From NCBI GenBank assembly GCA_946537255.1, contig CAMNFS010000002.1, positions 27,713 to 91,712 of the forward strand: a DNA stretch of 64,000 bases. The letters are read 5' to 3'. The notes under the pieces are model-generated. The model saw only the letters and a list, made by a program, of their open reading frames with translations, searched no databases and was not told the DNA's origin. Positions 3,993-58,532 of the stretch are shown here, one piece after another. The DNA comes from an uncultured Erysipelotrichaceae bacterium (GTDB lineage Bacteria; Bacillota_I; Bacilli_A; Erysipelotrichales; Erysipelotrichaceae). Position numbers and translations under genes: made by a program. The stretch's first letter is position 1. Each line of letters begins with the position of its first letter.

Positions 3993-4021
3993 TTGACGAA
4001 TAAACCGGCAGTTGATAGTAT
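3993..4021 (+). promoter_or_regulatory. Promoter of the leuA T-box leader
   Basis: TTGACG at 3993-3998, 17-base spacer, TAGTAT at 4016-4021. This is a good sigma-A match placed just upstream of the T-box leader, giving a transcript start near 4028. Confidence 0.75.
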
Positions 4022-4027
4022 TTTGCC

Positions 4028-4293
4028 AATAGGCAAATGCGATGACGGGGAAAAATACGGGAATGCGCGCCGCAGAGAGCTGTCGGAGGGTGAAAGACAG
4101 CACCGCTGAACCGGAATACCTGGCCCCTAAGCAGCGAGGCTGAACAGTGCAGTAAGCCGAGCCGGCTGTCCACCGTTAAAATGGGCACGATTCGCCATTG
4201 GCTGATCGAGTGAGCGGCCGCATATGCGGCAAGGAGAGTGGTACCGCGGTAAGTTATGACTTCCGTCTCTCAGCAGGGAGATGGAAGTTTTTT
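4028..4293 (+). promoter_or_regulatory. T-box riboswitch, leucine type (CTG specifier), before leuA
   Basis: The T-box consensus AGAGTGGTACCGCGG is at 4235-4249. It is followed by a terminator hairpin with ACTTCC/GGAAGT arms and a T-run at 4259-4293. Stem I contains the AGAGAGC motif at 4074-4080 and a distal hairpin. GGGG (4047-4050) can pair with CCCC (4124-4127), which places the codon CTG (4120-4122) plus a purine at the specifier position. The UGGU bulge fits a tRNA with discriminator A. Uncharged leucine tRNA should therefore antiterminate and switch on leuA onward. The specifier call is by alignment with the second T-box in this window. Confidence 0.88.
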
Positions 4294-12673: not shown

Positions 12674-14350
12674 TCAGAGTGCGGTAGATGCGATGATTTC
12701 ATCATCGGAAAGATCGGAGGTGAGTCCGGTTACCGCGGACTTGGCAACGTTGCAGCAGTGGTCGCCCATACGTTCAAGTGTACCGAGGATATCACTGTAG
12801 ATGGACTCCGCAACGGGAGATGTGCAGACTTTTTTGCTCATCCGGGTGAAGTGCGTCTGCCGGAATTCGATTTCCATATTGTCGAGGTTTCCTTCCATCT
12901 TCAGAAGCCGGCTGTAATCCACCGCGTTTCTGGTCACGAAGATTTCCGCGGACAGATCGAACATGTCAAACAGAAGCTGATACATCTGCGAAATGTCGGA
13001 GATCGCTCCTTCTGTAAAGGCTTCTTCCTTGGAAAAGACCATGTCGTAGAATTCAGAGAGGTTGGCGGCGAGATCGCCGATCCGTTCATAGTTCTTGACT
13101 GCGTCAAACTGGAAGCGGACATCCTCACTGTTTTTGGAAGAGAGATTCGAACGGGAATTCAGTTTGATCAGGTAATCGGTAATTCTCAGATCGAAGCTGT
13201 TGATCATGGATTCCAGTTCCTTCATCTTGTCGACTTTGATTTCCTTTCCGCTGCTTCGCAGGAAGGTTTCCGAATGGGTGATGGAGAGGCGGACCAGATC
13301 GATCATCTTGAGAATTGCCTGCTGGCTGGCAGTGATCGCAGCCGATGGCAGGGAGGCGGAGATGCCGTCATCCAGTTCATTGAGATCCACCCGGGAGTGG
13401 GGTGTTTCCTTGCCGGGAATCAGACGGGTGACAAGCGCCACGAGCTTGTCGGAGAACGGCAGGAAGAGAAGGGTTGTGACGGTTTTGAAGATGATGTTGG
13501 CAATAGCGATCTGCATCATTGGATTGGTATTGCCGGCAATGGCCTGAATGAAGCTGGAGTATGGGATCAGAAGGATCATGCCGATGACGGTTGAGATCGC
13601 ATTGATCAGGGTATGCAGAGCGGCTGTCCGCTTGCCGGCGACCGATCCGCCGATGGAGGCGAGAATTCCGGTCATCGTTGTTCCGATATTGGCACCGAAC
13701 ATGAACGGCAGAGATGCGGAGAAGGTGACTGCCCCGGCCTGATACAGCTTCTGAATGACACCGATGGTTGCGGCGCTTGACTGTACCGCGGCAGTAAGCA
13801 GAATGCCGGCAAGCAGAGCGAGCATCGGATTCTTGCTCATGGTAAGAGCGAAGGATTCAAAGCCGGGCATGTTTTTCAGATCGGCCAGTGCATCTCCCAT
13901 GGCGGACATTCCGAAGAAGATGAGACCGAATCCAAGAATGACGTTTCCGTAATACTGAATTTTGATTTTCTTTGCGAAGCATATCAGCATCGTTCCGATA
14001 AAGATGATGAACATCGCATATTTGTCAATATGGACCGAGATCAGAAATGATGTGATCGTGGTTCCGATCGTCGCGCCAAAGATAATGCCGGCGGCCTGCT
14101 CCAGCGACATGAGTCCGGCCCGGACAAGACCGATGGTTATGGCGGAAGTGGCCGAACTGGACTGCATGATGATGGTGATCGCTATGCCGATGAGCAGGGC
14201 GGAAATCCGGTTGGAGGTATATTTGTTGATCATGTCCCGCAGCTGATCTCCGGCTGCGGATTTCAGCCCGTCCCCCATGAATTTGATGCCGAACATGAAC
14301 AGGCCGAAGCCTCCGAGTATCATTCCGTAATTCAATGATGACAGTCCCAT
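12674..14350 (-). CDS. Na/Pi-cotransporter family membrane protein with PhoU-like domain
   Basis: 558 residues. The N-terminal ~310 residues form the NptA/YjbB-type fold with two inverted repeats, each carrying the QSSS-type signature (MQSSSATSAITIGL and VQSSAATIGV). The C-terminal ~200 residues are helical and PhoU-like (DLAANLSEFYDMVF, LERMGDHCCNVAKS). The family exchanges sodium and phosphate, and E. coli YjbB exports phosphate. The gene sits behind what looks like a Mn2+ riboswitch and its terminator, so a link to manganese or Mn-phosphate homeostasis is possible (inference). AAGGGG precedes the ATG. Confidence 0.9.
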   Translation of the reverse strand: MGLSSLNYGMILGGFGLFMFGIKFMGDGLKSAAGDQLRDMINKYTSNRISALLIGIAITIIMQSSSATSAITIGLVRAGLMSLEQAAGIIFGATIGTTITSFLISVHIDKYAMFIIFIGTMLICFAKKIKIQYYGNVILGFGLIFFGMSAMGDALADLKNMPGFESFALTMSKNPMLALLAGILLTAAVQSSAATIGVIQKLYQAGAVTFSASLPFMFGANIGTTMTGILASIGGSVAGKRTAALHTLINAISTVIGMILLIPYSSFIQAIAGNTNPMMQIAIANIIFKTVTTLLFLPFSDKLVALVTRLIPGKETPHSRVDLNELDDGISASLPSAAITASQQAILKMIDLVRLSITHSETFLRSSGKEIKVDKMKELESMINSFDLRITDYLIKLNSRSNLSSKNSEDVRFQFDAVKNYERIGDLAANLSEFYDMVFSKEEAFTEGAISDISQMYQLLFDMFDLSAEIFVTRNAVDYSRLLKMEGNLDNMEIEFRQTHFTRMSKKVCTSPVAESIYSDILGTLERMGDHCCNVAKSAVTGLTSDLSDDEIIASTAL

Positions 14351-14366
14351 ATTTTTCCCCTTTTGT

Positions 14367-14392
14367 AAAAAAACACACAGCCCTGCTGTGTG
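14367..14392 (-). terminator. Expression-platform terminator of the nptA-like leader
   Basis: A perfect 8-bp CACACAGC/GCTGTGTG stem with a 3-base loop is followed on the minus strand by seven Ts, only 16 bases before the start codon. In this position it is an attenuator rather than a gene-end terminator. Confidence 0.85.
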
Positions 14393-14406
14393 CGGTCTTC
14401 AGATTC

Positions 14407-14541
14407 CATTTCCGACTCATACACAGCAAAACAACTATGTATGAGTCTCACAATTTCAGAGAAGCCGGGTGCGTGCCGCACCGTGCTGACGACTTTCCCC
14501 CACAGATACTGTGCCTGTTACTCCCTCATTCCGTAGAAATG
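14407..14541 (-). promoter_or_regulatory. yybP-ykoY (Mn2+) riboswitch aptamer
   Basis: Read on the minus strand the leader shows, in order: GGGAGTA (14519-14525); a CACAG/CTGTG hairpin; AAGTCGTCA (GTCGTCA at 14487-14493); a GGTGC/GCACC stem; CCGGC (14464-14468); and a long GACTCATACA/TGTATGAGTC hairpin. CATTTC/GAAATG could close the basal stem. This matches, from memory, the order and sequence of the Lactococcus yybP-ykoY manganese aptamer (GGGGAGUAG, GUCGUCA, CACCGGC, GACAUAC hairpin). A terminator follows directly. The basal stem is the least certain part, since a TATCAT -10-like box overlaps it. Confidence 0.75.
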
Positions 14542-14694
14542 ATACCATGAACCTCGCTGAAAAAAGAGAAAAAACTGCGCCGCGCCGAAGCTTCATGCCG
14601 GCATGGAAACCGGAAAGGAAATTCACGCAATGAAACAAATGGATTTTGTTTCATAAATAGTTGAGCATTTTTCAGAAAAGTAGCGTGCGGTTTC

Positions 14695-14730: not shown

Positions 14731-15000
14731 AATCGAGAAATGCATTCAACGGGGAGTGGCGCTGAATCAGCCGGAACCAGAGAGCTGCCGTCTGGTGAAA
14801 GGCAGTTCCGGAACTCAGAGCAGATCACCCCGCAGCAGGTCCGCTGAACCAGCAGTAAGCGGAAACGGCAGGCACCGTTATCAGAGCCGGCAGGTTGATC
14901 GACCTGAATGAGCGGCCGTCACAGACGGCAAGAAGAGTGGTACCGCGGAAGCAGAATAAGGCTTTCGTCTCTTGTACAGACAGAGGGGCGGAAGCCTTTC
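14731..15000 (+). promoter_or_regulatory. T-box riboswitch, isoleucine type (ATC specifier), before ilvA
   Basis: T-box consensus AGAGTGGTACCGCGG at 14934-14948. The terminator hairpin at 14958-14999 has AAGGCTTTCG/GGAAGCCTTT arms and a short T-tract. Stem I carries AGAGAGC and a GCTGCC/GGCAGT distal hairpin. GGGG (14751-14754) faces CCCC (14828-14831), leaving ATC (14824-14826) followed by A at the specifier position. It should sense uncharged isoleucine tRNA and control ilvA-ridA. Confidence 0.88.
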
Positions 15001-58208: not shown

Positions 58209-58298
58209 GTCTTTCCTCCTTAAAAAGCCGAAGACAGCACATGCGGAAAAAACTTTCCTGACAAGCGCTGCCAATTCCTCGTGGCTCACTCTTGAATG

Positions 58299-58470
58299 GA
58301 CGCAGGCAGGTCTCCTGGCTTCCGTGTATTCTTCCCGCAGCCTTCTCAGTTTCCCAATGGCTCTTTATGCGGAAACACCCGGTTCACAGTGACGAGATCG
58401 CACAGGATTCACACCTGTTTCCCTATTCTGGATGACCAGTGAATTGCTTCACTCATCCCACCTGCGCCGT
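58299..58470 (-). promoter_or_regulatory. Cobalamin riboswitch
   Basis: On the minus strand the conserved elements occur in order: a GCGCAGGTG 5' base, GGGAAACAGGTGTGAATCCTG (read as GGGAA then GGTGNNAATCC), GTCACTGTGAACCGGG, GGGAAACTGAGAAGG, and the B12-box-like GCCAGGAGACCTGCC near 58305-58319. The basal GCAGG/CCTGC arms close it. It lies about 90 bases upstream of the DUF4430 start. Whether it acts by termination or on translation is not clear. Confidence 0.92.
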
Positions 58471-58532
58471 TTCAGAAAAATAATCGTTCTGATCGTACCA
58501 CAGCCTCTGTGTCATTGCAAAAAAGAGAGAAA

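Follow-up and report, generated by a model that had tools for sequence, protein, structure and literature searches.

Riboswitches of the yybP-ykoY (Mn2+) class, as known from E. coli alx and mntP, L. lactis yoaB, and X. oryzae (RF00080), share with the element described here the internal loop L1 (GGAGUA/GAGAC), helices P1, P1.2, P2, and P3, a seven-base loop L3 with an invariant adenosine, and an ON-type logic acting through P1 stabilization. The N7 of this adenosine (A41 in L. lactis, A48 in X. oryzae) selects Mn2+ (PMC6754395). The S. pneumoniae mgtA leader is reported to be a three-way-junction yybP-ykoY switch that binds both Mn2+ and Ca2+ (PMC9495176, PMC11434433; citing Martin 2019). Among phosphate transporters, S. 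aureus NptA, which carries PhoU, is a phosphate importer whose gene is controlled by PhoPR, and E. coli YjbB is insufficient for phosphate import (PMC13170248). Riboswitch control of such genes was absent from the literature searched; full-text searches returned no paper describing a Na/Pi cotransporter (NaPi) target of a Mn2+ riboswitch, a result compatible with a prior mention in the primary papers of the class.

The locus examined here lies in the window, a 64,000-nucleotide stretch of DNA from an uncultured Erysipelotrichaceae bacterium, and is encoded on the minus strand. Its gene (12674..14350) starts with ATG at 14350 and encodes a protein of 558 amino acids with two Na_Pi_cotrans repeats, both QSS repeats intact, and a C-terminal PhoU domain (PF02690, E 5.9e-60; PF01895, E 5.5e-21; NF037997 above cut-off). 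This architecture, which agrees with the initial annotation of the target as NaPi-PhoU, is common to S. aureus NptA and E. coli YjbB and suggests a Na+-coupled phosphate transporter of the NptA type; whereas nptA is under PhoPR, the window gene follows a candidate riboswitch. An extended -10 promoter-like element, TGG-TATCAT (14539..14547), lies about 9 nt upstream of the aptamer. A consensus promoter scan gave this element no score, a good -35 being absent, and a TGnTATnAT-like element with equal spacing to the aptamer occurs in most homologous leaders. The aptamer itself (14438..14530), delimited by model match, conservation, and covariation, is of the P4-less, three-way-junction type. Covariation and folding support a P1 switch helix in which the 5' strand AUGAG (14525..14529) pairs with the 3' strand CUCAU (14441..14445), the latter being common to a downstream anti-P1 hairpin. 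The 5' half of L1, GGAGUA (14519..14524), faces its 3' half GAGA (14449-14446), and L3, UCAGCAC (14483..14489), holds a putative Mn2+-coordinating adenosine at 14487, assigned from the sequence and the residues in PMC6754395. Next come the 13-bp anti-P1 hairpin GACUCAUACAUAG...GCUGUGUAUGAGUC (14414..14447), an intrinsic terminator of 9 bp, GCACACAGC-AGG-GCUGUGUGU with a U tract (14367..14393), directly 5' of the ATG, and a Shine-Dalgarno-like AGGGG (14357..14361). The landmarks that had been pointed out beforehand were all located, namely GGGAGTA at 14525-14519, GTCGTCA at 14493-14487 followed by the GC-rich P3 apical stem and CCGGC, the hairpin GACTCATAC at 14447-14414, and the terminator (14393-14367) before the start codon. 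Computed folding of the leader was more stable than that of 200/200 dinucleotide shuffles (z -3.6), and a plasmid nucleotide search with the leader as query gave no match. Elsewhere in the window, two T-box leaders were observed at 14736-14975 (+) and 4033-4273 (+), the former ahead of a gene that resembles threonine dehydratase and diverges from the NaPi-PhoU leader, along with a cobalamin riboswitch at 58288-58480 (-; 100.5 bits). A T-box or cobalamin leader was ruled out at the NaPi-PhoU locus itself.

Judged from its sequence, the leader is a conserved, covarying aptamer with a complete yybP-ykoY core consisting of L1, P1, P1.2, P2, P3, and L3. The internal loop GGAGUA ... GAGAC closes onto the P1 switch helix, and GGAGUA together with AGAC was found in 165/165 compared sequences, E. 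coli alx and mntP among them. The adenosine at 14487, equivalent to A41 of L. lactis and A48 of X. oryzae, is the third base of L3 in the window (UCAGCAC), as it is in L. lactis (UCAAUUC) and X. oryzae (ACAUACU). The core of E. coli alx (GGGAGTAAC / TCGTCATTACG / CCGG / GTGAGACC) is nearly identical to that of the window (GGGAGTAAC / TCGTCAGCACG / CCGG / GTGAGACT). In a longer reading, the alx leader runs GGGGAGTAAC ... GATCGTCATTACGATG ... CCGGTC ... P4 ... GTGAGACC, whereas the window leader runs GGGAGTAAC ... GTCGTCAGCACGG ... CCGGC ... GTGAGACT, without P4. No hairpin lies between P3 and the 3' half of L1, giving a three-way rather than a four-way junction; a short single-stranded linker, often UUAAA, takes the place of P4, and the segment after CCGG spans 15 nt in the window compared with 46 nt in alx. 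The absence of P4 is shared with the three-way-junction Mn/Ca riboswitch of S. pneumoniae mgtA, whose target is a P-type ATPase, whereas the element in the window precedes NaPi-PhoU rather than a known Mn exporter and is not recognized by RF00080.

This last point bears on the Rfam covariance search that the initial annotation had proposed as a check. With RF00080 (current name Manganese; gathering cut-off 45 bits), neither the window nor the leader matched at E 10, no match passed the cut-off genome-wide, and 0/295 genomes of the phylum passed it, so that the score did fall below threshold. However, the same library copy also missed the E. coli mntP and alx switches at the gathering cut-off; the miss at the window therefore carries no refuting force, and the RF00080 score was discarded as a test of membership. 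The printed RF00080 consensus lacks the P1 pairing and most of the 3' core; the E. coli mntP and alx riboswitches that it missed lie at L244:2955-3200 and L245:3360-3590. R1 is a covariance model trained solely on NaPi-gene leaders. R1 scored 78.9 bits at the window aptamer, a member of its training set (E 1.2e-17 in its own genome). Its best match in 14 kb of E. coli was the mntP leader (14.2 bits, E 0.028), it recovered 4/4 places where RF00080 gives signal in the phylum sample, and it matched in 53/295 phylum genomes. SSRC10 (RF02617) had no match in the window and weakly matched four mntP-linked loci (L153, L202, L174, and L185) with scores of 27-36 bits, the cut-off being 56. RF02617 probably represents the S. 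pneumoniae mgtA three-way-junction switch; the layout of this "Streptococcus sRNA 10" is that of a P4-less Mn riboswitch, and its classification as an sRNA is probably mistaken.

Upstream sequences of 43 orthologue loci from rumen and gut Erysipelotrichaceae revealed that about half share the leader. Its consensus is TGAGGGAGTARC - P2 hairpin - AAGTCGTCATCACGG..CCCGGCTTTCTTAAATTGTGAGACTCATAC, downstream of which lie another hairpin, the terminator, and the ribosome-binding site. An alignment of 23 aptamers (A1) supported P1, P1.2, P2, P3, and the P3 apical stem, with 84% of cells paired, 65 double-changed cells compared with 21 in shuffles, and a covariation of 0.39 against 0.21, well beyond slid registers. 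In sixty further copies, mostly located before other genes (A3), 95.7% of cells were paired and double changes numbered 312 compared with 84 in shuffles, this alignment being fitted to the model. Together, covariation and conservation ruled out a chance terminator. On the NaPi tree, the presence and absence of the switch was clustered, requiring 6 changes compared with approximately 13 in shuffles. The sister of the window gene (L036; 82% protein identity) carries, upstream of position 4001, a truncated aptamer whose 5' half is joined straight to the terminator, which provides direct evidence for loss of the switch.

R1 found the element in 104/120 relatives, with up to 8 copies per genome; the copy numbers are approximate because most of the genomes are metagenome-assembled. 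NaPi-PhoU is a recurrent target, preceded by the element in roughly half of the close orthologues, in a second NaPi paralogue within one genome (G026, L116), and in two further lineages whose NaPi-PhoU genes have 33-36% identity (L221 and L236). The 131 copies with the best scores form a sample that favours NaPi-like aptamers; in these, the first long gene encoded a CaCA exchanger (the commonest), NaPi, an uncharacterised 550-aa membrane protein, a flotillin-type or HflK-type SPFH protein, an ABC ATPase, MntP, a CitMHS-type permease, DUF975, NUDIX, or a P-type ATPase. Six of the CaCA cases in this set and several outside the genus were mntP-CaCA pairs, and the element outside the genus also preceded mntP, P-type ATPases, and CaCA. 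In the genome of the window, the NaPi copy was the sole copy found by R1; the best mntP gene of that genome (C10) has no such leader, and neither a Na_Ca_ex family gene nor a Cation_ATPase_C match was detected there. Membrane proteins of ~550 aa, without a Pfam or NCBIfam match in the one representative scanned, were observed behind the riboswitch in 13 loci (L144, L148, L161, L164, L175, L179, L181, L189, L198, L199, L123, L139, and L156). Genes of the SPFH/flotillin and HflK types also followed it (L124, L133, L134, L177, L183, L188, L195-L197, L205, and L218; and L126, L136, L146, L149, L157, L159, L168, L187, L193, and L194), one of them in a genome of another family (L218). SPFH/flotillin, ABC, CitMHS, DUF975, and the uncharacterised membrane genes were not described as targets in the literature searched.

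The helices of the expression platform were computed to be mutually exclusive. P1 (14529-14525 with 14445-14441) cannot coexist with the 13-bp anti-P1 hairpin (14447-14414), whose 3' strand (14427-14421) can alternatively pair with the terminator 5' strand as an antiterminator, and the same computed exclusivity among P1, anti-P1, antiterminator, and terminator was obtained for the window and most NaPi leaders. The anti-P1 hairpin was present in 22/22 NaPi leaders and the terminator in 20/22, and in 15 of 20 the antiterminator complementarity was higher than in 95% of shuffles. These exclusive helices predict a transcriptional ON switch. At high Mn2+, the ion would bind between L1 and L3 and stabilize P1. 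Forming P1 would occupy the anti-P1 hairpin's 5' strand and leave its 3' strand (GCUGUGU) free to pair with the terminator's 5' half, blocking termination and permitting transcription of NaPi-PhoU. At low Mn2+, the anti-P1 hairpin would form at the expense of P1, the terminator would fold, and transcription would stop. The computed energies were -62.5 kcal/mol for the OFF state, -51.6 for the ON state, and -51.0 for P1 plus terminator. With P1 forced, terminator and antiterminator were nearly equal (-51.0 and -51.6 kcal/mol). The OFF state is favoured in free folding, and the ON state would therefore require ligand together with co-transcriptional kinetics.

The assignment of the leader to the Mn2+ riboswitch class, as put forward at the outset, is supported by the complete and conserved core, the covarying helices, the ON-type platform of exclusive helices, and the recurrent association of the element with NaPi-PhoU and, in relatives, with mntP, mntP-CaCA pairs, and P-type ATPases. 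We estimate a probability of about 80% that the leader is a compact, P4-less yybP-ykoY riboswitch, responsive to Mn2+ and acting by transcription antitermination before NaPi-PhoU. That it might instead be an ordinary attenuator or promoter-proximal terminator resembling a Mn riboswitch by chance would fit the lack of an Rfam match, but this is extremely improbable given the strong covariation, a core nearly identical to that of E. coli alx, and model matches before mntP and P-type ATPases in many genera.

The identity of the ligand deserves closer weighing. Since mntP, mntP-CaCA pairs, and P-type ATPases are among the genes behind the element, it is most likely Mn2+. A credible alternative is Ca2+, with which the compact switch would sense Ca2+, or Ca2+ plus Mn2+, in vivo and govern a regulon mainly devoted to Ca2+/phosphate balance (CaCA, P-type Ca/Mn ATPases, and NaPi). 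The predominance of CaCA as the first long gene among the best-scoring copies is consistent with such a role, as is the S. pneumoniae mgtA RNA, for which a higher affinity for Ca2+ than for Mn2+, yet stronger activation by Mn2+, is reported (PMC9495176). Nevertheless, we regard this regulon as unlikely, since mntP and mntP-CaCA pairs follow the element in several families, tying the CaCA genes to Mn export; the Mn2+-selecting L3 adenosine is kept across the matches, and the window's own genome has neither a Na_Ca_ex family gene nor a Cation_ATPase_C match. The sequence of L3 was observed to track the downstream gene (L153, L166, L173, L178, L184, L190, L201, L202, L208, and L210), mntP-linked copies having mostly ACAUACU, as in E. 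coli mntP, and others UCAUCAC-like sequences close to E. coli alx. A family member that had drifted to another ligand could account for the NaPi-type L3 (UCAUCAC), given that ACAUACU occurs in 8/10 mntP-first copies and in no NaPi copy, and that both L3 types exist within one genome (G023: L190 and L205). E. coli, however, has a similar split between mntP (ACAUACU) and alx (UCAUUAC), both annotated as Mn2+ exporters, and a comparable difference separates the L3 sequences of the X. oryzae and L. lactis switches, both of which bind Mn2+ (PMC6754395), which makes such drift quite improbable.

With Mn2+ retained as the most likely ligand, the switch probably turns the NaPi gene on at high manganese. 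The initial suggestion of phosphate efflux induced by high manganese overreaches: S. aureus NptA imports phosphate and YjbB is insufficient for import in E. coli (PMC13170248), which leaves efflux as just one possibility, and the three-way-junction type is reported to bind Ca2+ as well (PMC9495176). We infer that Mn2+ would be the signal, that it would raise expression, and that an altered phosphate flux would be beneficial under excess Mn2+, for example through phosphate buffering or complexing Mn2+, or through rebalancing of phosphate via the PhoU domain. More tentatively, the compact switch of this rumen lineage may govern a global regulon that responds to metals and spans up to 8 operons per genome. 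Such a regulon would connect Mn2+, possibly with Ca2+, to the transport of phosphate, the exchange of cations, export by ABC systems, and membrane organisation by SPFH/flotillin proteins, and its two L3 types would be set for different metals or for different thresholds of metal. Erysipelotrichaceae and their relatives commonly carry the compact P4-less form, which the current Rfam model does not see and which precedes many genes without a Mn2+ link in the literature searched; an improved covariance model would alter the known distribution of the riboswitch class. A family of phosphate transporters becomes a probable target of the Mn2+ riboswitch, and a link between manganese and phosphate in bacteria becomes directly testable.
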